64,000 nucleotides of DNA from Acidobacteriota bacterium (GCA_029263295.1 JAJCXT010000092.1:1-64000); one strand, 5' to 3'; shown: positions 2,438 to 55,749, numbered from the stretch's first letter. The notes: generated from the letters alone by a model not told the origin. Numbers and translations: made by a program.

Positions 2438-5356
2438 TCAATCGCCGTCGCGCGACACCGGCTCCGGCAGGCGGTAGGCCTCCCGATTCGGCTTCAGCGG
2501 ACGGATCAGCCAAAACGGTCGCCGCGTGCCATCCGGGGAGTGCTCGTGCGCACCGCGCGCGCGACCGAGCCATTCCCGATAGACCTCGCGCGAGCGCTCG
2601 GTATCAACGGCGATGTCGCCATAGTCGTCACCTTCTCCCGCACGACTCACCCTCACGGCCTGGTGCCAGCAGTGCATGCCGGACACCGGGTCCGGGTGCA
2701 CGCCGAACGCGAGATTCTGATGTACGCCAACGTCCGTCCACCAGATGCGCGCGGTGTCGGGATCGGACGACTCGAACGGCTGCGCGCCCCGCAGCCGTCG
2801 CAGGCCCCAGTTCGAACCGTCGTTGTTCAGGTCGGCCGTCGCCATGAGCTGTCGTTGACCACTGTCGTGCAACTTCCATCGACCCATGTGATGACTACAT
2901 GCGACAACCCCAGGACGGATCCCCTCGGTTACCCAGGCCTTCACGACGAAGTGGCCGGTCTGCGTCTCGACGCGCACCAGGTCGCCGGTGGCAACGCCAA
3001 TCTCGCTCGCGTGAGAAGGATGCAGCCACAACGGGTTTGTATGGGCGATCTCGTCGAGCCACTTGGAATTCGCCGAACGCGTGTGGATCTGCACTGGCAA
3101 CCGGAAGGTCGAAATCAACGGGACCTGCCCGGAGTCCATTCGCTCCGGGTGCACATGGCTCTTGATGTAGGTGGGCAGCGCCGCATCGCGCCAGCCCCAC
3201 TGCGCCAGCGTCGGCGAGTAGAACTCCAGCCGGCCGCTCGGCGTCGGGAACCCACGCAACACTTCTCCGTCGACGCGCACGCCCACGGCACGCCGCCCGT
3301 CCGCATCGGGCTCCGGGGCACCCGTTGGCACGATGTTCACGGGCGCGGGCGCCGGGGCGCTCGTGTAGACGCGGCCGAAGAGATCTTCGGCAAGACCCTC
3401 GAGTTGTTCCTCGCCGATGCGCTCCTCGTACAGAGGTCCGACCAACGGCGTGACCTCGAACGCACCGTACTGGCGCATGTACTCGAGCGGCGTCCGCCCC
3501 TCGGCGCCAGCCACCTCGGGCAGGCCGGGGACGGAGTTCTCGAAAATGTGCCCGTAGTATTCATCGACCGTGAGCTTCGTTCCCGGGTTGGCCTTGGACT
3601 CTGCGAAGCCACGGATTCCCAATTCACCATCGGGATCGATGCGCCAGGTGAGTTCGATCCAGAACTCGTTCTCTTCCCACACTTCACCGGGGTTCGACTG
3701 GCGCGTATCGCTGATCTTCTCGCCAAGTCGCTCGCGCGCCGCGCGCATCACCGGCTGGCGAAAGCCCAGCCACTGGGCGTCGTGGGTCTCGTACGAGTGG
3801 ATGTCATGGCGTTCCGCCCCGTGCCCCATCGGCAAAACATAGTCCGCGAAGTACGCCGTCTCATTCCATGTCGGGGTCAACGCGGCGTACAGACCCACGC
3901 GCTTCGGGTCGGTGAGCATCTCGATCCACGCGAAGCCATCAGGGTTGGTCCACACCGGGTTGTAGACTCGCGAGAAGTACACTTCCAGCCGCGCGTCGCG
4001 CTCGCGCATGATGTGCGGCAGCAGGAACGAGAGTTCGTACATCGCCAACGGGTAGTCGGCCGGCCAGTTCAACTCGTTCCAGGTTTGCGGGTGCGACGGC
4101 ACATGGATCGGCTTGGGAACGAACTTGTTCCAGGCGTTGGGGTGCAGGCCGCCTGGAGTGGCTACTGAACCTGTCAGCGCGTTCAGGAAGAACAGGCATC
4201 GCGCCACCTGCCAGCCGCCCTCATTACCCGCTCCGGCGCTGCGCCAGTTGTGCGTCGACAGCCGCGTCCCGGCAGTCGACACCACCTGGGCGATCTCGGC
4301 GATGACATCGGCATCGAGACCCGATTCCTGCGCGGCAAAATCGAACGTGTACTCGGTGTAAAGCCCCTTGAGCGCCGCCTCGAACCCCGCGAAGCTGGCG
4401 TCCTCGTCAGGACGCTCCTTCACCATGTATTCCTGCCAGTTGAACCAGCGCCTCATGAACTCGCGATCGTAGAGGTCGTTCTGGATCAGGTAGTTGGCGA
4501 CCGCGAGGAGCACCGCGGCCTCCGACCCTGGATAGCTCGCCAGCCAATAATCGGCGTGGGTCGCTGTGTTCGACAGCCTGGTGTCGAACACGATCACCTT
4601 GGCGCCGCGCTGGCGCGCCTCGGTAATCCGCTGTGCATGCGGGTTGAAATAGTGGCCAGTCTCGAGGTGCGCCGAGATCAGCAGGATCACATCGGCGTTC
4701 GCGTAGTCCGGGCTTGGGCGATCAATGCCCGTCCAGAAAGCGTAGCCGGCCCGAGCCGCAGCCGAGCAGACGTTGGTGTGCGAGTTGTGCCCGTCGACAC
4801 CCCACGAAGCGATGACGCGCTCGGTAAAGCCATCTTCGCCAGGACGCCCAACGTGGTACATGACCTCGTTGTGACGGTCTTCCTGCAAACAGGTGCGGAT
4901 CCGTCCGGCAAGGTCGTCGAGCGCGTCGTCCCAGGAGCACCGTTCCCACTTCCCGGCGCCACGCTCACCCACGCGCTTGAGCGGGTAGAGAATACGATCC
5001 GGATCGGTGATCTGATTATGTGTGGCAGGCCCCTTGGCGCAGTTGCGGCCTCGCGAGCCCGGGTGCTCGGGGTTGCCCTCGAACTTGCGCACCTGCATGG
5101 AGTCACGATCGACGTAGGCGAGCAATCCGCAGGCCGACTCGCAGTTGAAACAGGTCGTCGGCACCAGCATGTAGCGATGCTCTTCGCGTTCAGGCCAGGC
5201 ACGCGAGTCCAGTTCGACCCAATCGTCCCATCGTTCCTTGGGCGGGAAGCTCGCCAGGTGCACGCGGCTGGGACCCGGGTAGAAGGTCTCGCCTCGGCCT
5301 TCGACATCGCGGCGCGCCGCGCTGACTCTGCGTTCGAGTTCGTTGAGGTCAGTCAC
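2438..5356 (-). CDS. Molybdopterin oxidoreductase catalytic subunit (DMSO reductase superfamily)
   Basis: This is a large bis-MGD enzyme of 972 residues. The [4Fe-4S] ligands are Cys69, Cys72, Cys76 (TCFNCESACG) and Cys106 (GRNCAKGP). Cys197 in TNVCSAAARAG is the likely molybdenum ligand. The C-terminal molydopterin-binding domain follows (about 780-960). No twin-arginine signal is visible, so the subunit probably stays in the cytoplasm, as SoeA-type sulfite dehydrogenases do. The ORF track starts further upstream, but that would overlap the previous gene. GTG at 5354-5356 lies 7 nt after the upstream stop with a GAGGA motif. The partner genes are the FeS-NrfD fusion upstream and TorD downstream. 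The substrate (sulfur oxyanion, polysulfide or other) cannot be assigned. Confidence 0.88.
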   Translation of the reverse strand: MTDLNELERRVSAARRDVEGRGETFYPGPSRVHLASFPPKERWDDWVELDSRAWPEREEHRYMLVPTTCFNCESACGLLAYVDRDSMQVRKFEGNPEHPGSRGRNCAKGPATHNQITDPDRILYPLKRVGERGAGKWERCSWDDALDDLAGRIRTCLQEDRHNEVMYHVGRPGEDGFTERVIASWGVDGHNSHTNVCSAAARAGYAFWTGIDRPSPDYANADVILLISAHLETGHYFNPHAQRITEARQRGAKVIVFDTRLSNTATHADYWLASYPGSEAAVLLAVANYLIQNDLYDREFMRRWFNWQEYMVKERPDEDASFAGFEAALKGLYTEYTFDFAAQESGLDADVIAEIAQVVSTAGTRLSTHNWRSAGAGNEGGWQVARCLFFLNALTGSVATPGGLHPNAWNKFVPKPIHVPSHPQTWNELNWPADYPLAMYELSFLLPHIMRERDARLEVYFSRVYNPVWTNPDGFAWIEMLTDPKRVGLYAALTPTWNETAYFADYVLPMGHGAERHDIHSYETHDAQWLGFRQPVMRAARERLGEKISDTRQSNPGEVWEENEFWIELTWRIDPDGELGIRGFAESKANPGTKLTVDEYYGHIFENSVPGLPEVAGAEGRTPLEYMRQYGAFEVTPLVGPLYEERIGEEQLEGLAEDLFGRVYTSAPAPAPVNIVPTGAPEPDADGRRAVGVRVDGEVLRGFPTPSGRLEFYSPTLAQWGWRDAALPTYIKSHVHPERMDSGQVPLISTFRLPVQIHTRSANSKWLDEIAHTNPLWLHPSHASEIGVATGDLVRVETQTGHFVVKAWVTEGIRPGVVACSHHMGRWKLHDSGQRQLMATADLNNDGSNWGLRRLRGAQPFESSDPDTARIWWTDVGVHQNLAFGVHPDPVSGMHCWHQAVRVSRAGEGDDYGDIAVDTERSREVYREWLGRARGAHEHSPDGTRRPFWLIRPLKPNREAYRLPEPVSRDGD

Positions 5357-5363
5357 GTCATCC

Positions 5364-6908
5364 TCACGCCAAGGGCACCGACTGTCCGGCCTGGACATAC
5401 GCATGCTCGTGCAGCACCAGACCGACGAGTGCCATAACCGCGCCACCAATCAGCAACCACGGGGCCAGCACGCCAGCAAACAGGAGCACGGCCCCGGCAC
5501 GGAAGTGGCCACTGTGCCTGCCGCGGGTCATCTCTCTTACCGCCAGGCGAGCATGGGCCGTCGGGTGCGCCAGAGTCACCTCGCCCAGCACGAAGAGCAG
5601 ATGCACGGCCGAGCTGAGTGCCACCGTCCACAGCAGCGCCACCGGTAGCCGTGATGGAACGTGACCGGGCAACAAGGCGACCACGATGAAGAGCGTCGCC
5701 GCGCCGGCCAGCACGGCCTGGACAACCATGTGCGGAGGCAGCAGCGGACTCTGCCAGAGGTCACGTGCTTTGGCCTGTGCGAACAGGTATGCCGTATACA
5801 CCGCCGTCATGACGGCCAACGGCAGGCCCGGCAGGAGTAGCGCGGACTGCAACTGATGGTTGCCCACGAGGCTACCCAGCAAGTGCCCCATGAGCACCAG
5901 GCTATAGCCCGCGATGACATAGGCCCCCTTCACTAGCCAGCTGCGACGTTGGCCCTTCGTGAAGATGTAGTAAAAGCGCTTAGGGTGCTCGAGATCCCAA
6001 ATCAAGAGCGCTCCCGTGACGCCGAGAAACAACAGCGCCAGCAGCGGAATCACCCACTGCCACAGCAAGTGGTCGGGCGGTATCACGCCGAGGTAGGTCG
6101 CAAGCCCGCCGACGAGATAGGCGCCCGCGGCGATAGCTTTGGTCCATGTATAAGCGCTCACACGCCAGTCCCACGGCATCGAGTGCGGTACGTCGTAGGC
6201 AAGTACCGCGGCCGCGGAGCTGTTGGGCGCGTCGGGATGCCCGGAAACCACATGCTCACCACCGCTGACCTGCTCGCTCCACATGAACAGGTTGCCGGGA
6301 GGGCGCTGCGCGGCGAGCGGATCGAGCGTAGCCTGAGTCGCCCCACGGTAGAACAGCTTGGGGCGAGTCTCCTTCTCCGGCCGGCGAACCGATACCGGGT
6401 GGCGCTGCATCATCGCCGCCACCTTCGATGCAGGATCATTCATGTCGCCGACCATGATCGCCTCGGTGGGGCAAACCACCGCACACGCTGGCTCCAGTCC
6501 GATGTCCAGGCGGTGAGCGCAGAAGTTGCACTTCTCAGCCGAGTGGTCGTCCGGATTGATGAAGATCGCGTCGTAGGGACACGCGGCAATGCAGGCCTTA
6601 CAGCCGATGCAAATCGACTTGTCGAAATCGACGATGCCGTCCGGCCGCTGGTGCATCGCGGCCGTCGGGCAAGCGATGGCACACGGCGGGTTGTCGCACT
6701 GGTTGCAGCGCGTGACCTGATAGTTGCGCCGCACATGCGGGAAGGTGCCGACGTCGACGTACTTGACGTAAGTTCGGTTCACCGAGAGCGGTACCGCGTT
6801 CTCCGACTTGCATGCCGTTGAGCAGGCGTGACAACCGATGCAAAGGGTGTGATCGACGAGCTTGGCCCACTTCTGCTGCGGCGCGCCCTCTTCGACCAGT
6901 TGCCTCAT
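5364..6908 (-). CDS. Fused four-cluster ferredoxin and NrfD/PsrC-type membrane subunit
   Basis: This 514-residue protein joins two subunits that are normally separate. Residues 1 to about 190 hold 16 cysteines in four groups (CIGCHACSTAC, CNQCDNPPCAIAC, CIGCKACIAAC, CNFC plus CAVVC), as in DmsB/PsrB electron-transfer subunits with four [4Fe-4S] clusters. From about residue 245 there are about eight hydrophobic helices of the NrfD/PsrC type, which bind quinone. The protein would carry electrons between the catalytic subunit and the quinone pool, with the ferredoxin part on the same side as the catalytic subunit. It starts 8 nt after the exported first gene and ends 7 nt before the catalytic subunit. 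Direction of electron flow is unknown. Confidence 0.9.
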   Translation of the reverse strand: MRQLVEEGAPQQKWAKLVDHTLCIGCHACSTACKSENAVPLSVNRTYVKYVDVGTFPHVRRNYQVTRCNQCDNPPCAIACPTAAMHQRPDGIVDFDKSICIGCKACIAACPYDAIFINPDDHSAEKCNFCAHRLDIGLEPACAVVCPTEAIMVGDMNDPASKVAAMMQRHPVSVRRPEKETRPKLFYRGATQATLDPLAAQRPPGNLFMWSEQVSGGEHVVSGHPDAPNSSAAAVLAYDVPHSMPWDWRVSAYTWTKAIAAGAYLVGGLATYLGVIPPDHLLWQWVIPLLALLFLGVTGALLIWDLEHPKRFYYIFTKGQRRSWLVKGAYVIAGYSLVLMGHLLGSLVGNHQLQSALLLPGLPLAVMTAVYTAYLFAQAKARDLWQSPLLPPHMVVQAVLAGAATLFIVVALLPGHVPSRLPVALLWTVALSSAVHLLFVLGEVTLAHPTAHARLAVREMTRGRHSGHFRAGAVLLFAGVLAPWLLIGGAVMALVGLVLHEHAYVQAGQSVPLA

Positions 6909-42724: not shown

Positions 42725-45250
42725 CTAACCGCCGATCACGTAACTCGCTTCCAGCGCCGCGCCGATCGACTGCGCTAGATCCGACAGGTGATAGCGCGTC
42801 GCCGTATCACCAGCGCCGCGCGCGCCCGCCTCCAGGCGGTACTGCAGCTCGCCGAGCGCCCCACGCGCCACGGCCCGGAGCTCACCCGAAGAGCCGTCGT
42901 CCGTGATCTGAGTGATCAGCAGAGCCACGAATGAGCGCTGTAAAGCACGGCGATAGGGATCCACGCTGGAGCTGCTGGCACCGAGTTCCGCGAAGATCCC
43001 GGTCGCGAGGTCGCTGGTCATCTCAGCGAGGGTGTAGGTCGGGGAGGTGCTCGTCGCTTCGACAGCCACCAGCCGCGCCACCCGGCCGGGGCTATACAAC
43101 GTCCGTAACAGACGCTGTTGCGACACGTCGAGGCGCGCCACCATGGACGTCATGCCGATACGCGTCAGGACGTCGTCTGTGACCAGCCACGGCTGCACCT
43201 TGAACCCGTTCTCGAGCAGGAACGCCACCGCGTCCGCCTGCCGCTCGCGGGCCAACGGCGTGTACACGGAAGCATCCTGGCCATAGACCATGCGGTTGAT
43301 CTCAACACCGCCAACCAGGCTCGCGACGTGTCCGAGCTCGCGATCGCGCTGGCCGATGATGTTGGCGTGCATGGTGTTCAACAACGAGTAGTCCTCGCCC
43401 TCTTCACCGGTGGCCTGCACGACGAAGCTCGCCACGCGCTCCAGGTTCAGCAGCCCGAGGCGCGTAGCCTCGATGGCATCGGCCGAAAGATCCTCGGTCT
43501 GCGCCAGAGGATCGATACCGAACGACCCGAAGCGTAGGCAGGCATCGTCGAGTTGCCGCGCCGCAATGCGACCCAGGAAGTCCTTCTCGTCGTCCGCCGA
43601 CGCCGCACCCGCGACAGGCGTGTAGCCCCACTCGGTAGCGAAACGATCATAGGGCCCTATGCGCGGAATCAACCGTGCCCCGTCGCCCGGCTGCGCGACA
43701 TAGTTGAAGCGGCCGTAGTCCATGATCGAGGCCTCGTTGCCGTTGGCCTCGGTGAACTCGCGACTGCGCAGCTGCGCGACGGTGTAGCAGGAGCTCGCCT
43801 TCATGTTGTGCTGGAAGCCCAACGTGTGTCCCACTTCATGCGCGGAGATATAGCGAATCAGCTCGCCCATTAGGTCGTCGGGCAACGGCAGATCCTGCGC
43901 GCGTGGATCCATGGGAGAGGCCTGCACGAAGTACCAGTTCCGGGCCAGCTGGATGACGTTGTGGTAGAAGCGGATGTCCGCCTCGAGGATCTCGCCGGTG
44001 CGCGGATCGTGGATATGCGGGCCGAAGGCATTCTGAACCGTCGACGGCAGCCAGCGAATCGTCGAATAGCGTGAATCCTCTGCGTCCCAGTCGGGATCCT
44101 CCTCCTCGGTCGGCGCGTCGCGCGCCACGATCGCATTGCTGAACCCGGCGGCCTCGAAAGCCTCCTGCCAGTCTTCAACGCCCTGGGCCATGTACGAGCG
44201 CCACTTCGCGGGAATGCCACGACCAATGTAGTAGACGATCGGCTGCACGGGATCCGACACCGCGGCGTCCGGATCCTGCTTCTCGAGCCGCCAGCGCGTC
44301 ACGTAGCGAACGTTGTCGACCTCGTGCGAATCGGAGCTGTAGTTCTCGTACCCGAGTGAGAAGAAGCCCACCCGCGCGTCGAAGTTGCGCGGCATCATTG
44401 GGTCGTCCGGCAACTTCACCATGCTGTGGTGCAGCTCGACCGTGACTGAACCCAGTGTTCGATCGCTACGGCGCGGTGCCGGGATGCGGCTCGACTGTTG
44501 CTGAAACGGGTTACTTGGACTCTTGGAGAAAGTGGCCAGCACACGCGTTTCAACGTTCATCGGAAACGCCTTCACCGAGGTAAAGAAGCTCCGTGACTTG
44601 TCCATTCGCTGCACGTCGCGCAGCTGCACCTTGGGCGAGAACTCGGGCACGTCGTCCATGAACAGGCCGGTGACGTCGATCACCGCGGCGCCGTCTTCGG
44701 CGTAGGCGACAACGTCGAACTTCCTGATGATCGCCGGCACGGTCGAGGCATCCACGGCGATGGCCTCGTGTGTGCCCTCCTGCGCGCGCAGGTTGTACTC
44801 GACGTTACGCAGCAGGATGTGATCATCATGCTTGTCCCAACGAACGACACGGTTCTGCGCCTGCGTCCCGCCATAGCCGTAGCTGGTCTGGGTGCGGGCG
44901 ATCTGCGTTACCCAGATGAACTCACCGCCGAACTCGCTGACGGGAATCTCGTAGTACAGCTTGTCGTCGATGCGGTGGGTCTTGAAGACGCCCTCGCGCG
45001 TCTCGGCCTCGTCGGTGATGACCTCATCGTACGGCTTGATCTTGCCGTTCTTCTCTTCCTCCTCACCCTTCTCAGCCTCGTCACCTTCCTCTGCCGCCTG
45101 CTCCTCTTCCTCCTCCTGCTTCGGCTTGTCCTCTTCCTGGGCCGGCACCATGGGCACGACGGGCGCCGCGGCGAGGGCGGCGGGAGCTACCGCCAACAGG
45201 AACGTCAGGAGGACAGACAGCGCGACAGCAGACAGGCGAAGGGAACGCAT
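42725..45250 (-). CDS. Secreted zinc metalloprotease (DUF5117/DUF4953 type)
   Basis: This 841-residue protein has a signal peptide (LSVLLTFLLAVAPAALAAA), then an acidic linker with runs of Glu and Lys (EEDKPKQEEEEEQAAEEGDE), the DUF5117-like N-terminal beta region and the metzincin-like catalytic site HEVGHTLGFQH (His471, Glu472, His475, His481). SIMDYGRFNYVAQPGD follows as the Met-turn-like segment. The family is frequent in Bacteroidetes, Acidobacteria and Xanthomonadales and is presumed to be a periplasmic or surface endopeptidase. GGAG precedes the ATG. The next gene upstream is divergent and encodes another secreted metalloprotease. Confidence 0.9.
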   Translation of the reverse strand: MRSLRLSAVALSVLLTFLLAVAPAALAAAPVVPMVPAQEEDKPKQEEEEEQAAEEGDEAEKGEEEEKNGKIKPYDEVITDEAETREGVFKTHRIDDKLYYEIPVSEFGGEFIWVTQIARTQTSYGYGGTQAQNRVVRWDKHDDHILLRNVEYNLRAQEGTHEAIAVDASTVPAIIRKFDVVAYAEDGAAVIDVTGLFMDDVPEFSPKVQLRDVQRMDKSRSFFTSVKAFPMNVETRVLATFSKSPSNPFQQQSSRIPAPRRSDRTLGSVTVELHHSMVKLPDDPMMPRNFDARVGFFSLGYENYSSDSHEVDNVRYVTRWRLEKQDPDAAVSDPVQPIVYYIGRGIPAKWRSYMAQGVEDWQEAFEAAGFSNAIVARDAPTEEEDPDWDAEDSRYSTIRWLPSTVQNAFGPHIHDPRTGEILEADIRFYHNVIQLARNWYFVQASPMDPRAQDLPLPDDLMGELIRYISAHEVGHTLGFQHNMKASSCYTVAQLRSREFTEANGNEASIMDYGRFNYVAQPGDGARLIPRIGPYDRFATEWGYTPVAGAASADDEKDFLGRIAARQLDDACLRFGSFGIDPLAQTEDLSADAIEATRLGLLNLERVASFVVQATGEEGEDYSLLNTMHANIIGQRDRELGHVASLVGGVEINRMVYGQDASVYTPLARERQADAVAFLLENGFKVQPWLVTDDVLTRIGMTSMVARLDVSQQRLLRTLYSPGRVARLVAVEATSTSPTYTLAEMTSDLATGIFAELGASSSSVDPYRRALQRSFVALLITQITDDGSSGELRAVARGALGELQYRLEAGARGAGDTATRYHLSDLAQSIGAALEASYVIGG

Positions 45251-45430
45251 TCGATCTCCGGGTAAGGCGAAAATGAGTCGGGCAAACCGAGGCTACCACC
45301 CGGCCCCCCGCGAGTCTGTGACCGTCCCGGTGCTTGTTGTTGTCGAGCTCTCCACCAACGGGCGGCGGGCATGTGTGGAAACGGTACCGTCGAAGCAGGA
45401 TAATGCTGGAGGTTCCTGGCTCAGAGAATG

Positions 45431-45435
45431 GGAGG
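45431..45435 (+). promoter_or_regulatory. Ribosome binding site deciding the GTG start at 45441
   Basis: GGAGG is followed by a 5-nt spacer and GTG, which puts the signal peptide at the N-terminus of the metalloprotease. Confidence 0.65.
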
Positions 45436-45440
45436 TTGCC

Positions 45441-46703
45441 GTGAGGATGGTCGGATGGGCGCTGGTCACAATGTCGCTGGTGGTGGCGACGGGTGGAACA
45501 GGCAATGCTCACGGGCAGACCGAAGTCCGGGTAGACCTCTTTTCTCGAGCCCAACGACTGCCCGCGGAGCGAACCGCCCAGGACCCGCTCGCGACTCGTG
45601 CTACATGGGAGGTGCGGCTCAACGCCTCCTTGCTGCAAGTGTCGGAACCCTCGTCGGCTCTTCGCCTCGCTCTACCCGGCGGCACGATCGCCGATCTCGA
45701 CCTGGACTACGTGCAGAACGACCAGTTCAATGGGCAAGCCTGGATCGGCCACGTCAGCGGCACCGAACGACGCGCCATCTTCATGGTGGACGGCGACTCT
45801 GTCGCAGGTCACGTGAACCTCGGCCGGGCGTCGTTGGAGATTCGTCCACGCCGCGGACGGCAGCACGCCATCGACCTCGTTGACACGACCCTGCTGGCGC
45901 CGGAAGCCCCACCCATCGCTGTGCCGCACCGCGCGAAAGGGCGGATGAGCGCGGCCGAGGCCGCCGACAACGGCAAGGTGTTCGACGTGATGGTCCTCTA
46001 TACGAAGAACACGGTGGCCGGTGCGGGCAGCAACAAAGCCATTCGCATGCTGATCAAACTCGGGGTCACCGAGACCAACGTGGCTTTCGCCGACAGCAAG
46101 GTCATCCCTCGCATACGACTGGTCAAGCTGGCCAAAGACCCCTACAAGGAGACTGGCGACGCGTTCACGGATGTCGAGCGTCTACGAACTCTCGGCGATG
46201 GCCACTGGGTGAAGGTCGACCGGCTGCGCGATCGCTTTGGCGCCGACTTCGTCGTTGGCATCGTCGAACTGATCGGAATCGGCGGCGTGGCGTTCACGAT
46301 GAATGGCGTCAGCCCGGCCTTCGAGCGCTCGGCTGTGGCCCTTGTGCGGCGACCCCACATCAGCCCCGGCTACACCTTCGCCCACGAACTGGGCCACAAT
46401 TTCGGTCTACTCCATGATCGGGCGAATGCCCGTCTCGCTTCTGATTCGCGTTTCCGCGGCAGCAACCGCGCGTATTCCTTCTCCTATGGCTACGCCGACG
46501 TGCCCGGCAACTTCCGCACGATCATGGCGTACGCGCCGCCCGAGCCGCGCATCCTCCGATGGGCGAATCCGAAGAAGACCTTCAACGGGCGGCCAACTGG
46601 GATCGACCGGCGTGAGTCGGACTCCGCTGACGCTCGTATATCGATCAACAGAGCGCGCAGGACCCTGGCCAACTTCCGCCCGTGCACCAAGAAGTGCGGC
46701 TGA
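45441..46703 (+). CDS. Secreted adamalysin/reprolysin-like metalloprotease
   Basis: The 420-residue protein begins with a signal peptide (MVGWALVTMSLVVATGGTGNAHG), has a propeptide of about 150 residues, and a catalytic domain from about residue 175 (KVFDVMVLYTKNTVAGAG). The extended zinc motif HELGHNFGLLHD (His315, Glu316, His319, His325) is that of M12B-type metzincins, and RTIMAYAP is the Met-turn. It ends in CTKKCG, so a disulfide is possible. GTG at 45441 is selected because GGAGG stands 5 nt upstream; ATG 45447 is a second choice and the ORF-track start lies inside another gene's signal region. It would be secreted to degrade external protein. Confidence 0.9.
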   Translation: MRMVGWALVTMSLVVATGGTGNAHGQTEVRVDLFSRAQRLPAERTAQDPLATRATWEVRLNASLLQVSEPSSALRLALPGGTIADLDLDYVQNDQFNGQAWIGHVSGTERRAIFMVDGDSVAGHVNLGRASLEIRPRRGRQHAIDLVDTTLLAPEAPPIAVPHRAKGRMSAAEAADNGKVFDVMVLYTKNTVAGAGSNKAIRMLIKLGVTETNVAFADSKVIPRIRLVKLAKDPYKETGDAFTDVERLRTLGDGHWVKVDRLRDRFGADFVVGIVELIGIGGVAFTMNGVSPAFERSAVALVRRPHISPGYTFAHELGHNFGLLHDRANARLASDSRFRGSNRAYSFSYGYADVPGNFRTIMAYAPPEPRILRWANPKKTFNGRPTGIDRRESDSADARISINRARRTLANFRPCTKKCG

Positions 46704-49277: not shown

Positions 49278-50342
49278 ATGAGGCATTCAGCACGCACGTT
49301 CGCTTCCCTACTCGTTGTACTTTCCCTGTCGCTGCTTCTCGCGCTCTCGACAACGGTCGTTGCGCAGCAACCTCACCTCGAGTGGGCGCTGCAGGAGTCC
49401 GGCACCGACGCGAGTCTGCGCGGGCTCTCCGCCGTCAGCGACCGGGTCGCCTGGGCCACCGGATCGAACGGCACCTGGCTGCGAACGATCGACGGCGGCG
49501 CCTCCTGGCAAGGCGGGCAGATCGCCGGGGCCGAGGAACTGGGTGTTCGCGACATTCACGCTTTCGACGAACTCCACGCGGTCGCGCTCACAATCGGCTC
49601 GCCGGGGCGCGTCTACCGCACGCACGATGGCGGCTACAGCTGGCAGCTGGTGTTCGAGGATGACCGTCCCGAGGTGTTCTTCAACTGCATGGACTTCGCC
49701 GACGAAAAGCGCGGCTATGCCGTAGGCGACCCTATGGGCGGGCGCTTCCTCTTCATCGAAACGCGCGACGGTGGCAAGAACTGGGCGCCACTTTCCGCTC
49801 CGAGTCGCCCCGAGCCGGGCGACGGCGAGGCTCAGTTCGCCGCCAGTGGCACATGCTTGCAGGCACGTGGCGAAAACGTGTGGATAGGAAGTGGTGGCAG
49901 CCGCGCACGGGTGTTCCGGTCTCCGGACCGCGGTCGCACCTGGGATGCTGCCTCCACGACGCTGCAACACGGTGCAGCATCCAAGGGTGTTTTCGGGCTG
50001 CTGTTCTGGACCGATCGCGACGGTGTCGTGGTGGGCGGCGACTACACCCGGGAAACCGACCCTACAGACGGACTCGCCATCACCACGGATGGTGGCGCCA
50101 GCTGGAGCGCGGGTGGCGGCACCAGGCCGGGTGGCTTTCGGTCAGCCGTAGTGCGTTCGCAGCAGGACGGTTTCGCAGCGCTTGTGGCGGTAGGCCCCTC
50201 CGGCAGCGACCTGTCCCTGGACGATGGCCGCGCCTGGACGCCGATCGAAGGCCCCGGATTCCACGTGGTGAGTCTCGCTGCCGACGGCACCATCTGGGCC
50301 GCCGGCGCAGAGGGCCGGATCGCGAGGCTAGTCCGCCGATAG
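49278..50342 (+). CDS. Secreted BNR-repeat protein, Ycf48-like
   Basis: This 354-residue protein has a signal peptide (LLVVLSLSLLLALSTTVVAQ) and a propeller of BNR/YCF48-type repeats, seen as RTIDGGASWQGG, RTHDGGYSWQLV, ETRDGGKNWAPL, RSPDRGRTWDAA, TTDGGASWSAGG and SLDDGRAWTPI. Ycf48/HCF136 proteins help photosystem II assembly in phototrophs, but in heterotrophs the family is secreted and of unknown role, sometimes labelled oxidoreductase without evidence. It is divergent from the M48 gene with 66 nt between starts. The other BNR protein at 15757 is three times longer and not a close copy. Confidence 0.85.
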   Translation: MRHSARTFASLLVVLSLSLLLALSTTVVAQQPHLEWALQESGTDASLRGLSAVSDRVAWATGSNGTWLRTIDGGASWQGGQIAGAEELGVRDIHAFDELHAVALTIGSPGRVYRTHDGGYSWQLVFEDDRPEVFFNCMDFADEKRGYAVGDPMGGRFLFIETRDGGKNWAPLSAPSRPEPGDGEAQFAASGTCLQARGENVWIGSGGSRARVFRSPDRGRTWDAASTTLQHGAASKGVFGLLFWTDRDGVVVGGDYTRETDPTDGLAITTDGGASWSAGGGTRPGGFRSAVVRSQQDGFAALVAVGPSGSDLSLDDGRAWTPIEGPGFHVVSLAADGTIWAAGAEGRIARLVRR

Positions 50343-50398
50343 GCTCACGAGTGGCGGCGAACTCACCGACATCTGACTGGTAGGGGCGGCCAGTGCTC

Positions 50399-52486
50399 CT
50401 AGACGTCTAGAGTCCGCTTCGCCTCACCACCTACGCGACCGCGACGGCAGGCGTCGGTAACCATGAAGTCGGCAGAGTGACGTGACTGCACGTCTACCGC
50501 TTCGGCGAGCGTCGCCGCACAGGAGCCCTGCACACAGTCGACGATCGCCTTGCGCGCGGCCTCGAGCGCCGGATCGCCGGTGGCCAGGCCAGGCACCTCG
50601 GTGGGCACGCCTGAAACAGCACCCTCCTCGAGCGGCCGCCGAACGATCCCATGATCACCATCAGTCGCCAGCGCCCACACGAGCGGCAGACACTCGTCCA
50701 TGATGCCGACAGCATCGACGAGCCAACCGGCAGCTTTCTCGCCACCGACGAAGCGGCCGCTGAGCAACATCTGCATCAGCTTGGCATGCCCCGCGCCATC
50801 CGTGCGACGGAACGGCCAGTGACAGCCTTCCATGCCGGGAACGACGGGTAGTGTGACCTCGGGGAATCCCAGCGTCGCGTCATCGACAGCCACCACGTAG
50901 TGGCAATGGCTCATCAGTTCGAGCATGCCACCGAGACAGCGCTTGCCGTTGATGAAGCCCACCGAAACCACGAACTCGTCATTGAGCCGACGTGCGGTCT
51001 TCGACCAGTCGTTGGAGACCGCGAAGCCGGCATCGGTGTCCTCGAGGGCTGGGAAGAAGTTGCTGGTGTCGGCACCGACGAGCTGCCCCGCGAGGTGGAA
51101 ATCGCCGGTCAGGATGACTCGCTCGATAGCGGCCGCCTTGAGCCAGTCGATAGCGCGATTCAGCTCGGCGTCAACGTCATGGTTGTAGGCCTCGCGACCG
51201 ATGGTCACGACACCGACCGTACCGTCGTGCTCGGCATTGACGTACAGCTGCTGCCACTCGGCCGACTCGATCGCTGCCAGCGTATCGGGGTGCCAGGCGG
51301 CGCCCGCGGCGTCCGGGTGCAGGGCGTGGTACCGCTCCACGGTGGCGATCACCGCTTCGGCCCCGGCAGCGCGCATCATCGCCAGCGTGCCTGAACGGAA
51401 TTGCGCACACTGCTCACCGATGAGGTTCATCATCGCCAGATGCGCACGCTGCTCCTGCAGCATCAAGGTGGTCATCTGAAACATCGGACCGTACAGCCAT
51501 GTGCGCAGTTCGTCGTTTGCGGCGGCCTCCAGTGACCAGTCCACCATCGGGCGGAAGTGGTTGGGCGGATACCAGTTCAATCCGGTGTCCTTGCGCTCAT
51601 CGAGCATTGGCGTGGGCCGGAACACCTCGCCGTAGTTCTCCGCCAGGTGGTGCAGACACGACCAGGTGAGGAAGTCCGCGCCCTTGGCACCGATCGCATC
51701 GTGCGCGCGGAAGGGGTTCGCCCCAATCAGGCGACGCACATGCTTGTCGATCTTCCAGAAAGGCATGTTCGAAGCATCGTGGTAGCGCAGCCCGGCGAGA
51801 GTAACGCCGCAGAACAGCACGTCGAGGACGAACGACCAGTTGTCACTCACCCGCATCGGCTGCAGCCCGAGAGCCCAGAGCATGCGCGTCACATCCGACG
51901 TTTCCTGCTCCACGATCTCGTAGATCTTGTTGATCTCGTGTGGGAAGGCGGGGTGAGCCACGCCAACGCCGAGTTGCTCGCTCGGGAAGCCCGAGGTGAC
52001 CGAGCGGATCTCGATCTCTGGATAACGACCGCGGAAGAGGTCGTAGTGCCCCTTCTTGATCTCGAGGATCTCGGGAATGGCCTCGAGCAGGAAGCGCGGG
52101 TTGTAGCGATCGAGCTCGGTGGGCAACGTGGCGCCGTCGTAGCTGATGCGCACGATGTTCTGCATGATGCCGTCGGCACCGTCGCGGCCGAACGCTCGTA
52201 CCAGGCCGCTGTAGTGCTTGCTGATGCCATCGGGCGCGCTGGGCAGGTCAAGCGCCACGATGGGCACGCCGTAGGGCTGCAGACGCGAGCCCAGCTGCAT
52301 CGCCTTGCCCGAACCGACGATACCGTTGGCGCCGGAAATCACCAGCGCGCCACGCTCGCCGGTCGGGCCGAAGACCGCATCGACGGCCGCATCCGGCGTT
52401 ACCGGCATCGCGCCGTTGGCGAAGATATCTCGCACTGTGCCGAGATCGAGCGTCTCCAACGTTGTCTGACGCATTGTCGTAGTCAT
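50399..52486 (-). CDS. Bifunctional 3-hydroxyacyl-CoA dehydrogenase/enoyl-CoA hydratase, reversed domain order
   Basis: The 695-residue enzyme has a nucleotide-binding dehydrogenase domain first (LVISGANGIVGSGKAMQLGSRL; 3HCDH C-terminal region to about 320) and a crotonase domain second (about 420-600). Its crotonase oxyanion and acid-base residues are visible in LGGMLELMSHCHYVVAVDDA and LGFPEVTLPVVPGMEG. In FadB and FadJ the order is the opposite. It starts 3 nt after a thiolase gene with GGAGGGG in front, so the pair would carry out the last steps of a beta-oxidation round: hydration, NAD-dependent oxidation and thiolysis. The Rossmann signature GANGIVG departs from the usual GAGxMG, so the cofactor use deserves care. 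Confidence 0.82.
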   Translation of the reverse strand: MTTTMRQTTLETLDLGTVRDIFANGAMPVTPDAAVDAVFGPTGERGALVISGANGIVGSGKAMQLGSRLQPYGVPIVALDLPSAPDGISKHYSGLVRAFGRDGADGIMQNIVRISYDGATLPTELDRYNPRFLLEAIPEILEIKKGHYDLFRGRYPEIEIRSVTSGFPSEQLGVGVAHPAFPHEINKIYEIVEQETSDVTRMLWALGLQPMRVSDNWSFVLDVLFCGVTLAGLRYHDASNMPFWKIDKHVRRLIGANPFRAHDAIGAKGADFLTWSCLHHLAENYGEVFRPTPMLDERKDTGLNWYPPNHFRPMVDWSLEAAANDELRTWLYGPMFQMTTLMLQEQRAHLAMMNLIGEQCAQFRSGTLAMMRAAGAEAVIATVERYHALHPDAAGAAWHPDTLAAIESAEWQQLYVNAEHDGTVGVVTIGREAYNHDVDAELNRAIDWLKAAAIERVILTGDFHLAGQLVGADTSNFFPALEDTDAGFAVSNDWSKTARRLNDEFVVSVGFINGKRCLGGMLELMSHCHYVVAVDDATLGFPEVTLPVVPGMEGCHWPFRRTDGAGHAKLMQMLLSGRFVGGEKAAGWLVDAVGIMDECLPLVWALATDGDHGIVRRPLEEGAVSGVPTEVPGLATGDPALEAARKAIVDCVQGSCAATLAEAVDVQSRHSADFMVTDACRRGRVGGEAKRTLDV

Positions 52487-52489
52487 CGT

Positions 52490-53671
52490 CTACCCCTCCA
52501 CCTGCAGAATCGCGGCGATGCCCACGTCGCCAGCAGCGCATCCGAACACGAGCACGTAGCCGCCACCAAGATCGACCGCTTCTTCGAGCGCCTCGATCAC
52601 GATGCGCGTGAGCGTCGGCCCCTGCGGGTGGCCCCAGACCAGCGAGCAGCCTGTCTTGTTCATCTCACGCCAGTCGTAGTCGAACACCTTGGCGAAGATG
52701 GCGTCGTTCACCGCGAACGGGTTGTGGTCCTTCACGACCTTCATGTCGGCCATCGTCAGCCCGGTGCGCTGGAGCAGTTTCTTCACGGCCATCGCCGGCG
52801 CCTCGGGCATCATCGCCGGGTTCACCCGCACCTCCGTCTTCGCCACGATCTTGATGTCGATCTCGGGTCGCGGGCTCAGGTCTGCCACCCGATCCTTATG
52901 GGCCACGAGTAGCGTCGCCATGCCGTCGGCCGCGTGCGTCTGCGTTCCTGACGTAACGCAGGTGTCGAGTTCGCGCTGGGCGGCCAGGCCCTCGCGCGTG
53001 AGCATGCGCACGCCCTTGTCAGAATCGATCGTGCCCAGCTTCTTGCCGCTGACGTTGAGGATGTCCAACGGCACCAGCACGCGATCGAGGAACCCCGACT
53101 CCTTGGCCTCGAAGTACTGCTGATAGCGATAGAACGTCAGGTCGTCGACCTCGCGGCGATCCAGCCTGTACTTACGTGCCGCGTTCCCACCAGTGTTGAG
53201 CATCGCCTGCCCTGTGACCGGATCGAAGCCGAAGTTGTCCCAGACGTCCGCGATCGGCACTGTGCGCTGATACGAACGGCGCTCGGGGAAGACACCCACC
53301 GGCGAGTCGCTGGTGCGATCGAAGGTCAGCACGCCGACCACATCGAAGGTGCCATTGTTGACCTCGTTGTTCGCCTGCAGAATCGCTTGCAAGCCCGTCG
53401 CGCACGCCTGTTCCACGTGATATCCGGGAATGCGCTGATCAATCAGACCGGCGAGCAGCGGCGCGGTCCAGAACTTCCAGTGGTACGGCACCGTCGAGCC
53501 GATGACCAGGTATTCGAGTTCGCTCTTCCGAACCCCGCGTAGGCCGAGGATGCGGCCCATCGCCTCGCCGGCGAACTGGCCAATGTTGACCTCGGCCAGC
53601 GCTGATGTCTGCCAGGCAGGAAAGTAGCTACTTCCCCAGGTCCCGTAAGGGATGCGGGCTTCGGACAGCAT
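52490..53671 (-). CDS. Thiolase-family acyl-CoA acetyltransferase (non-canonical)
   Basis: This 393-residue enzyme has the thiolase nucleophile Cys90 in VEQACATGLQA, HNPFAVND where canonical thiolases have NEAFA, TGCSLVWGHPQGPTLTR with the general-base His, and GCAAGDVGIAAI with the second catalytic Cys. The length is normal. N-terminal residues (EARIPYGTWGSSY) fit the family. GAGGTG precedes the ATG. It forms an operon with the reversed-order dehydrogenase/hydratase, so thiolysis of 3-ketoacyl-CoA is likely. It is divergent from typA. Chain-length preference is unknown. Confidence 0.9.
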   Translation of the reverse strand: MLSEARIPYGTWGSSYFPAWQTSALAEVNIGQFAGEAMGRILGLRGVRKSELEYLVIGSTVPYHWKFWTAPLLAGLIDQRIPGYHVEQACATGLQAILQANNEVNNGTFDVVGVLTFDRTSDSPVGVFPERRSYQRTVPIADVWDNFGFDPVTGQAMLNTGGNAARKYRLDRREVDDLTFYRYQQYFEAKESGFLDRVLVPLDILNVSGKKLGTIDSDKGVRMLTREGLAAQRELDTCVTSGTQTHAADGMATLLVAHKDRVADLSPRPEIDIKIVAKTEVRVNPAMMPEAPAMAVKKLLQRTGLTMADMKVVKDHNPFAVNDAIFAKVFDYDWREMNKTGCSLVWGHPQGPTLTRIVIEALEEAVDLGGGYVLVFGCAAGDVGIAAILQVEG

Positions 53672-53919
53672 GGGTCACCTCGCGTTGCTGCGGCGGCCGC
53701 TGTGGGGCCGCGGAAACTCGTCGGTTGATCCTCCCACACCAAGCCTGGCTCGTTATGCGGGTTCAGCGGCGACAGTGCTCAAACCGGAGAGGATCGTTTT
53801 GGGGCGACAAGAATGTCGCTCACGTCGCATACTTGGGGTGTGCCGTCGCGATACCCCGCGAGGCTCACTCGCTCCATAAGCGACGCCACACCTCTGTCTT
53901 TCAATGGCGCAGGCTCCGC

Positions 53920-55749
53920 ATGATCTCCAAGCTCCGCAACATCGCCATCATTGCGCATGTCGACCATGGCAAGACCACGCTGGTCGACGAGATGCTCAAG
54001 CAGTCGGGCACGCTCGATCTCCGGACGGAGGTCCGCGAGCGGATCATGGACTCGAACGACCTCGAGCGTGAGCGTGGCATCACGATTCTGTCCAAGAACA
54101 CGGCCATCCGGTGGAGCGACTACCGCATCAACATCGTGGACACACCGGGGCACGCAGACTTCGGCGGCGAGGTCGAGCGGGTGCTCTCGATGGTCGACTC
54201 TGTGCTGCTGCTCGTCGATGCGGTAGACGGACCGATGCCGCAGACACGCTTCGTCACCCAGAAGGCTTTCAACCACGGCCTGCACCCGATCGTGGTGATC
54301 AACAAGATCGACCGCGAATCCGCACGTCCCGACTGGGTGCTGGATCAGACCTTCGAGCTGTTCGACCGCCTCGGCGCCACCGACGAGCAACTCGATTTCC
54401 CCGTGATCTACACGTCGGCCATCCAGGGCACGGCCACACTCGACTGGCACCAGCCCGGCACGGACCTCGAACCCCTGTTCCAGACCCTGGTCGACCACGT
54501 GCCGCCGCCGGCGGTCGACCCCGATGGTCCGCTGCAGCTGCAGGTCAGTTCGCTCGACTACTCGTCGTACGTCGGTGCCATCGGCGTCGGCCGCATCCAA
54601 CGCGGCACGCTGCGCTGCAACGACAACGTCACGGTAATCGACGCCCAGGGCGAAGCTCGCAAGGAAAAGGTACTGCAGGTACTCGGCTTCCACGGCCTCG
54701 AGCGGATCGAAGTCGAGAGCGCCACTGCTGGCGACATCGTCGCGTTCAGCGGCATCCCGACGCCCCACATCTCAGACACCCTCTGCGACCCGGAACACGT
54801 CGAGGCACTCCCCGCCCTGACCGTCGACGAACCGACGATCCGGATGACGTTCGAGACCAACACGTCGCCGTTCTCGGGACGCGAAGGCAAGTTCGTAACC
54901 AGCCGACAGGTTCGCGAACGCCTCTTCCGCGAGGCACTCACCAACGTAGCGCTGCGGGTGACGGAGACCTCGGAGGCGGAGAAGTTCGAGGTTGCCGGCC
55001 GCGGCGAACTCCACCTGTCGATCTTGCTGGAGACGATGCGCCGCGAAGGCTACGAGGTCGCGGTGTCGCGCCCGCGCGTCGTCTACCGCGAGGTCGATGG
55101 CAAGCGCCACGAACCTTTCGAACAGGTCAGCGTTGATATCGAAGACGTCAATCAGGGCGCCGTCATGGAGGCGCTCGGCGCCCGCGGCGCCGAGCTGAAG
55201 GACATGGTCCCGGACGGCAAGCGACGCGTGCGACTGGACTTCATCATGCCGTCGCGCGGGCTCATCGGCTTCCAGTCGGAATTCCGCACCATGACTTCCG
55301 GCAGCGGCATTCTCGTGCACACGTTCGACCACTACGGCCCGGTGAAGAAGGTCGCACGGGTCCGGCGGCCGAACGGCGCACTCGTCTCGATGGCCCAGGG
55401 CAAGGCCCTCGGATTCGCCATCTTCAACCTGCAGGAGCGCGGGCAGATGATGATCAGCCCCGGCGACGAGGTCTACGAGGGGCAGATTGTGGGCGTCAAT
55501 GCGCGCGACAGAGACCTGGCGGTCAACCCGCTGAAGGGCAAGAAACTGACCAACATGCGCGCCTCGGGCAAGGACGATGCCATCGCCCTGACGACGCCGC
55601 TGAGGTTCGCGCTCGAACAGGCGATGGAGTTCATCGAGGACGACGAACTACTCGAGGTGACGCCCGCGGCCTTGCGGCTGCGCAAGCGCCACCTCAAAGA
55701 AGTAGATCGTCGACGCGCCGCCAAGCAGCGCGAGACTGTCGCCGGCTGA
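53920..55749 (+). CDS. typA: Ribosome-associated GTPase TypA/BipA
   Basis: The 609-residue GTPase assists ribosome assembly and stress adaptation. G motifs are AHVDHGKTT (G1), ERGITI (G2), DTPGH (G3) and NKID (G4). Domains II, III, V and the TypA-specific C-terminal part follow, with [22 protein letters not shown] and [18 protein letters not shown] 53920 ([17 protein letters not shown]) matches the family start; the longer track ORF is rejected. The wording of the sequence is closest, from memory, to gammaproteobacterial TypA ([22 protein letters not shown]). Convergent with the FKBP gene, with a hairpin between. Confidence 0.97.

Follow-up and report, generated by a model that had tools for sequence, protein, structure and literature searches.

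In Aromatoleum sp. CIB, the steps below benzoyl-coenzyme A (CoA) ring cleavage are assigned to three separate enzymes, AabB (2,3-dehydropimelyl-CoA hydratase), AabC (3-hydroxypimelyl-CoA dehydrogenase) and AabD (3-oxopimelyl-CoA thiolase), and loss of aabC results in a longer lag on benzoate and cyclohexane carboxylate (PMC9795900). The locus described here lies in a 64,000-nucleotide stretch of DNA from an Acidobacteriota bacterium (GCA_029263295.1, JAJCXT010000092.1:1-64000; hereafter the window) and consists of two adjacent genes, one for a thiolase and one for a multifunctional enzyme (MFE) in which a 3-hydroxyacyl-CoA dehydrogenase (HCDH) half is joined to a crotonase half. The reactions and pathway position proposed for this pair are the same as those of AabB, AabC and AabD, but the latter are encoded by separate genes, whereas HCDH and crotonase are fused here; the two systems were compared by description, not by sequence. 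Our reading, to which we assign a probability of roughly 55%, is that the pair corresponds to AabC-AabB, in fused form, together with AabD, as a single unit that would oxidise omega-carboxy-acyl-CoAs.

Other described systems share part of this arrangement. FadB' of Ralstonia eutropha (H16_A0461), a two-domain enzyme of a degradation operon that serves fatty acid degradation, likewise has HCDH first and crotonase last, an order termed inverted by its authors (PMC4230905); FadB', also compared by description, is described with a 3HCDH_N domain, for which the MFE has no Pfam match. E. coli FadBA and FadIJ combine the same three activities in adjacent alpha and beta subunit genes, but in the opposite domain order, so that the MFE does not have the N-terminal crotonase and C-terminal HCDH of a FadB/FadJ-type alpha subunit; their thiolases are 22-26% identical to that of the window and separate from it in trees. 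E. coli PaaH (3-hydroxyadipyl-CoA dehydrogenase), PaaF (hydratase) and PaaJ (thiolase) also act on omega-carboxy-acyl-CoAs after aromatic ring cleavage, but are separate enzymes with canonical motifs, and PaaJ is 27% identical to the window thiolase. In the benzene-degrading methanogenic ORM2a, an abundant HCDH and thiolase with consecutive accessions have been assigned to the 3-hydroxypimelyl-CoA step (PMC13101534). The nearest relatives found were other MFE-thiolase pairs of Acidobacteriota (termed family B; L022, L023, L026, L030 and L033), in which HCDH likewise precedes crotonase and the neighbouring thiolase is 34-39% identical to that of the window. In the one such pair inspected (L140/L033), the thiolase shares the HNPFAVND, GHPQ and GCAAGD motifs. 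By contrast, the family B MFE has a canonical GxGxxG Rossmann motif and is 23-28% identical to the window MFE.

The gene pair and its family

Both genes lie on the minus strand, the thiolase gene upstream and separated from the MFE gene by 3 nucleotides (52487-52489). The original prediction, made from the window sequence, gave the span of the pair, the 3-nucleotide spacing and the GANGIVG, HNPFAVND and WGHPQG motifs, all of which proved exact (Table 1). Its placement of the dehydrogenase ahead of the crotonase is borne out by the AlphaFold model and Foldseek, by a profile match to 4dyd and by the position of Pfam ECH_1. Domain order was rejected as a novelty, since it is already characterised in FadB' (PMC4230905) and shared by family B. 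Novel features are instead the divergence of the Rossmann loop, a thiolase dedicated to the MFE, and conservation across phyla.

A scan with one genome per species returned 99 relatives, of which 80 were kept; these loci are the closest matches and not a random sample. They show 56-86% identity and come almost entirely from metagenome-assembled genomes, mostly of uncultivated bacteria, in about a dozen phyla (named as in the record titles): Acidobacteriota, Gemmatimonadota, Zixibacteria, Eisenbacteria, Krumholzibacteria, Latescibacterota, Planctomycetota, Bacteroidota including Ignavibacteria, Calditrichaeota, Neomarinimicrobiota, Elusimicrobia, Verrucomicrobia and Deltaproteobacteria. At all 75 loci with upstream sequence, a thiolase orthologue (53-88% identity) directly precedes the MFE gene, mostly within 20 nucleotides or overlapping it. 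To this extent the original prediction is supported, the pair being a distinct, obligately paired beta-oxidation family. A stable trifunctional complex of MFE and thiolase, of the alpha2beta2 type, is a putative assembly. Within Acidobacteriota the pair was present in 14 of 396 genomes and is therefore sporadic.

Conservation is extensive: the columns with at least 98% identity number 175 of 695 in the MFE and 105 of 393 in the thiolase. The GANGIVG, HNPFAVND and WGHPQG motifs are kept in about 75 homologues, which rules out chance. They are typical of the whole family, and in that sense the predicted unusual motifs stand; one qualification concerns the thiolase loop, where His in place of Asn is unusual but has precedents.

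The best NCBIfam matches for both proteins fell far below cut-off, and so no family name applies; a literature search for the family returned none. The original prediction had named a close match to a characterised pair as the finding that would count against it. No such match was found, the thiolase being at most 27% identical to E. coli FadA, FadI and PaaJ and likewise to the three other thiolases of the window genome. In the thiolase tree the family stands apart from all six of these proteins. In the HCDH tree the branch leading to the family is very long (4.2 changes per site), which leaves its exact sister unsure. This is a deeply separate family, real, well conserved and unnamed in the libraries searched. 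Comparison with plasmids did not recover a close relative, and a promoter and terminator scan of 50300-54000 gave no match and was not informative.

Genomic context and co-occurrence

The association with benzoyl-CoA metabolism, which the original prediction had missed, is visible in the relatives only. By a strict count, Had, Oah, Dch, benzoyl-CoA-reductase-like, hydroxybenzoyl-CoA-reductase or BoxB genes lie within 6 kb of the pair at 29 of the 80 loci, and at 20 of the 43 loci longer than 12 kb. Bacteroidota/Ignavibacteria loci present the order Had, Oah, Dch and then the pair. At one of these (L064, Had-Oah-Dch-thiolase-MFE), Had scored 429.7 bits against a curated cut-off of 338.65 and Oah 588.1 against 464.45, while Dch was the best match but below cut-off. 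In Zixibacteria the pair stands beside genes for a benzoyl-CoA-reductase-like protein with its activase, for a transporter and for an acyl-CoA ligase of the ADP-forming type. Two Acidobacteriota genomes have BoxB, a BoxC-like gene, an aldehyde dehydrogenase and a crotonase a few kb from the pair on the same strand, and elsewhere in Acidobacteriota an equivalent operon with Oah, benzoyl-CoA-reductase-like, ACD ligase and transporter genes contains, in place of the pair, a thiolase and a distant MFE that shares its domain order.

Genome-wide co-occurrence follows the same bias. Outside Acidobacteriota, Oah exceeded its cut-off in 34 of 50 genomes bearing the pair, and three more had partial genes. 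In tests that ignore shared ancestry, Oah occurred in 3 of 9 Gemmatimonadota genomes with the pair and in 3 of 161 without it (p 0.002; p 0.018 without the centre genome). For Acidobacteriota, genomes with Oah or BoxB numbered 8 of 14 among the bearers and 78 of 382 among the rest (p 0.0035).

Variations on these neighbourhoods were also observed. At four Zixibacteria loci (L045, L050, L057 and L058), the pair is followed by a lone 2-hydroxyacyl-CoA dehydratase/benzoyl-CoA-reductase-like subunit of about 414 residues, one activase, the ADP-forming ligase and a transporter of the sodium-solute type; the stretches covered contained no recognised second subunit of the reductase. LeuC/LeuD-like genes precede the pair at some loci (L072, L098 and L114), whose thiolases form a sub-clade 55-57% identical to that of the window. 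At L098, genes for a crotonase, a DRE-TIM-type protein and Oah come after the pair.

Catalytic features of the two proteins

Pfam recognised the crotonase domain alone in the MFE (ECH_1 at residues 423-590; 30.3 bits against a cut-off of 27), together with a trace, below threshold, of the C-terminal domain of HCDH. 3HCDH_N (PF02737) gave no match in the protein at an expectation value of up to 1, nor at the locus in a genome search, because the Rossmann domain is so divergent. Assignment of the N-terminal half was made by two independent lines. A profile of 45 family members matched diketoreductase 4dyd over residues 63-268 (E 2e-5), and the AlphaFold model of the MFE (predicted local distance difference test score (pLDDT) 90; predicted template modelling score 0.92) matched L-3-hydroxyacyl-CoA dehydrogenases (6acq/1f0y) in Foldseek with probability 1.00 and a template modelling (TM) score of about 0.7 by target. 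The N-terminal half, as modelled, thus has the HCDH fold.

The catalytic positions of this fold are largely retained. Ser162 is invariant together with His178 and Glu190, and in an alignment with FadB, FadJ and PaaH the latter two residues keep the +12 spacing of FadB. An Asp at the position of Asp222 also occurs in some family B members. The GANGIVG loop, whose three glycines (G52, G55 and G58) are invariant in the 45 members, aligns with GSGSIG in family B and with GAGIMG in FadB. Asp80, at the end of the second strand, is at least 90% conserved and suggests NAD rather than NADP as the probable cofactor. In the crotonase half, the GAD oxyanion segment is invariant, like both catalytic Glu residues, as are the charged residues of the GKRCLGG segment; these last might, speculatively, bind an omega-carboxylate.

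For the thiolase, the AlphaFold2 model (pLDDT 80) resembles thiolases with a TM score of about 0.8, Pfam Thiolase_N/C matched, and the modelled fold together with the Cys-His-Cys set places the protein in the thiolase superfamily. His at the Asn position of NEAFA is common in other thiolases (HEAF, HDCF). PDB entry 2wku is the N316H mutant of Zoogloea thiolase.

Table 1. Coordinates of the gene pair and of its domains and conserved residues in the window
Feature	Position	Strand	Evidence or remark
MFE, 695 residues; HCDH-fold half N-terminal, crotonase half C-terminal	50399..52486	-	Pfam, profile, AlphaFold model, Foldseek
HNPFA-type thiolase, 393 residues; first gene of the pair	52490..53671	-	Pfam Thiolase_N/C, AlphaFold2 model, orthologues
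HCDH part, about residues 40-405; Rossmann and C-terminal helical domains	51272..52369	-	Foldseek to 6acq, 1f0y and 1wdm; profile to 4dyd
Nucleotide-binding loop GANGIVG, residues 52-58	52313..52333	-	GxxGxxG spacing replaces GxGxxG
HCDH catalytic His178 in HPAFP, equivalent of HFFNP	51953..51955	-	Invariant
HCDH catalytic Glu190	51917..51919	-	Invariant; alignment
Asp222, in place of the conserved active-site Asn of canonical HCDH	51821..51823	-	Invariant Asp in family
Crotonase core, about residues 413-608	50663..51250	-	Pfam ECH_1 3.4e-7; profile 1.9e-15 to 3pea
Glu523, first catalytic Glu, GGMLELM	50918..50920	-	Invariant
Glu543, second catalytic Glu, GFPEVTL	50858..50860	-	Invariant
Thiolase nucleophile Cys90, ACATG	53402..53404	-	Invariant
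HNPFAVND loop, residues 316-323, where NEAFA is expected	52703..52726	-	H316 to A320, N322 and D323 invariant; common to a family B thiolase
WGHPQG with catalytic His348	52619..52636	-	G347, H348, P349 and Q350 invariant
GCAAGD with catalytic Cys378	52526..52543	-	Invariant

Proposed function and alternatives

The observations comprise the folds, the invariant catalytic residues, the obligate gene pairing, and the synteny and co-occurrence with ring-cleavage genes; activity, NAD+ use, substrate, direction and complex formation are inferred. The crotonase half would hydrate a 2-enoyl-CoA, the HCDH half would use NAD+ to oxidise the (S)-3-hydroxyacyl-CoA, and the resulting 3-oxoacyl-CoA would be cleaved by the thiolase, completing the last three steps of a round of beta-oxidation. 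In the anaerobic benzoyl-CoA pathway the chief likely substrate would be 3-hydroxypimeloyl-CoA, as released by Oah, which the HCDH and thiolase steps would convert to glutaryl-CoA and acetyl-CoA; the hydratase would be needed where pimeloyl-CoA also enters. Activity on C7 dicarboxylyl-CoA, the function of AabC and AabD, is predicted from genomic context. Because of the association with Box genes, the proposed range is extended to C6 dicarboxylyl-CoA, and in some lineages the substrates may be C6 (adipyl) intermediates of the aerobic Box pathway, possibly 3-hydroxyadipyl-CoA. The substrate range of its own that had been predicted for the pair is supported as a likely substrate class.

Several findings weigh against this assignment. 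In genome searches, neither Oah nor BoxB exceeded cut-off in the window genome (G000, 78% complete), its congener G001 (95% complete) or G090, which also has the pair. No HGD-D protein was present in these three genomes, and BadI, of the cyclohexane carboxylate route, exceeded cut-off in no genome, these three included; that route was rejected on this basis. Another genome of the same genus, G017, has Oah, split over two contigs, without a close pair. An Oah match was wholly absent from 13 of the 50 bearers of other phyla, and the neglect of shared ancestry in the co-occurrence tests counts on the same side. With the Asn-to-Asp change and the altered nucleotide loop, cofactor and activity are predictions. 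The pattern in G000, G001 and G090 is the main weakness of the explanation for the window's own copy: in this lineage an unrecognised ring-cleavage route may feed the pair, the pair may have a wider dicarboxylate role, or it may be retained for another substrate.

The best-surviving alternative is that the pair belongs to an old, divergent FadB'/FadN-plus-FadA lineage and serves general fatty-acid beta-oxidation with no special substrate. The three activities and the inverted order are shared with FadB' (PMC4230905), and the pair occurs in genomes with no detected aromatic ring-cleavage gene, that of the window among them. However, the window genome carries a further two HCDH genes, both with a thiolase nearby: on contig C83 a FadI-like thiolase lies near a 737-residue FadB-like multifunctional enzyme, and on contig C36 a thiolase lies near an HCDH gene. 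General fatty-acid oxidation is therefore covered, and the pair is not the sole beta-oxidation set. The bias of synteny and co-occurrence towards benzoyl-CoA genes and the extreme conservation of the MFE also speak against this alternative, which we regard as unlikely.

Slightly less likely again is a module for some other ring or branched substrate that shares genomes with benzoate degradation. Examples would be CoA esters of alicyclic, naphthoyl or sterol-ring compounds, or chemistry on 2-hydroxyacyl-CoA by way of a neighbouring dehydratase-like protein. Neighbours of the pair are indeed varied (2-hydroxyacyl-CoA dehydratase-like protein with activase, KorA, methylmalonyl-CoA mutase with CoA transferase, LeuCD), and an HGD-D protein, of the benzoyl-CoA reductase superfamily, was found in 12 of the 19 bearers without Oah above cut-off. 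Against this, Had, Oah and Dch are the most repeated and most specific neighbours. An HGD-D route in the bearers without Oah was rejected for the window's family, which had none of the positives. A synthetic direction, with reverse beta-oxidation making 3-hydroxy or dicarboxylic acyl-CoA, is highly improbable: the thiolase and HCDH steps are reversible and the structures nearest to the thiolase in sequence bear the name acetyl-CoA acetyltransferase, but the recurrent neighbours are catabolic and include no recurring polymerase or acyl-chain synthase.

Oxidation of omega-carboxy-acyl-CoAs by the pair would have consequences beyond the window, and here our confidence falls a little short of even. 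Tentatively, a previously undescribed pair conserved across phyla, specialised for these substrates and with a remodelled nucleotide loop, would supply the missing lower benzoyl-CoA pathway of numerous lineages without cultivated members, among them Zixibacteria, Ignavibacteria and other Bacteroidota, Gemmatimonadota, Eisenbacteria and Calditrichaeota. Its presence would point to aerobic or anaerobic degraders of aromatic or alicyclic acids, even those whose ring-cleavage genes are not yet recognised. When genomes are surveyed for anaerobic aromatic degradation, the pathway is usually followed as far as ring cleavage and generic beta-oxidation is then presumed; if the proposal is correct, the pair fills the step after ring cleavage across phyla and doubles as a genomic marker. 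Bearers without known ring-cleavage genes, the window's lineage included, would then become candidate carriers of an upstream pathway not yet recognised, and the question for enzymology would be how an HCDH can function with a GxxGxxG loop and with Asp in place of the active-site Asn.

Other observations on the window and its genome

The distribution of Oah and the pair is patchy within a single genus, G017 having Oah without the pair and G000 and G001 the pair without Oah. PaaA/PaaC-like diiron proteins occur in G000, G001, G017 and G090, with scores below the cut-off for PaaA (phenylacetyl-CoA epoxidase). On contig C116 of the window genome, two proteins of this family are encoded side by side (L167:514-1449 and L167:2128-2949), with a Zn-type alcohol dehydrogenase gene after them; inspection by eye revealed no PaaZ/PaaG/PaaK cluster near the PaaA/PaaC-like genes. 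A phenylacetate route in the window genome was rejected on the missed PaaA cut-off, the lack of such a cluster and the occurrence of PaaA/PaaC-like proteins in the pair-less congener G017.

Elsewhere in the window, positions 2438-6908 (minus strand) encode a molybdopterin oxidoreductase of 1003 residues beside a 514-residue protein in which 4Fe-4S and NrfD-type membrane domains are combined; the two represent a respiratory complex like polysulfide reductase. Positions 44961-46703 (plus strand) encode a secreted-looking protein with an M12B (reprolysin-like) metallopeptidase domain.

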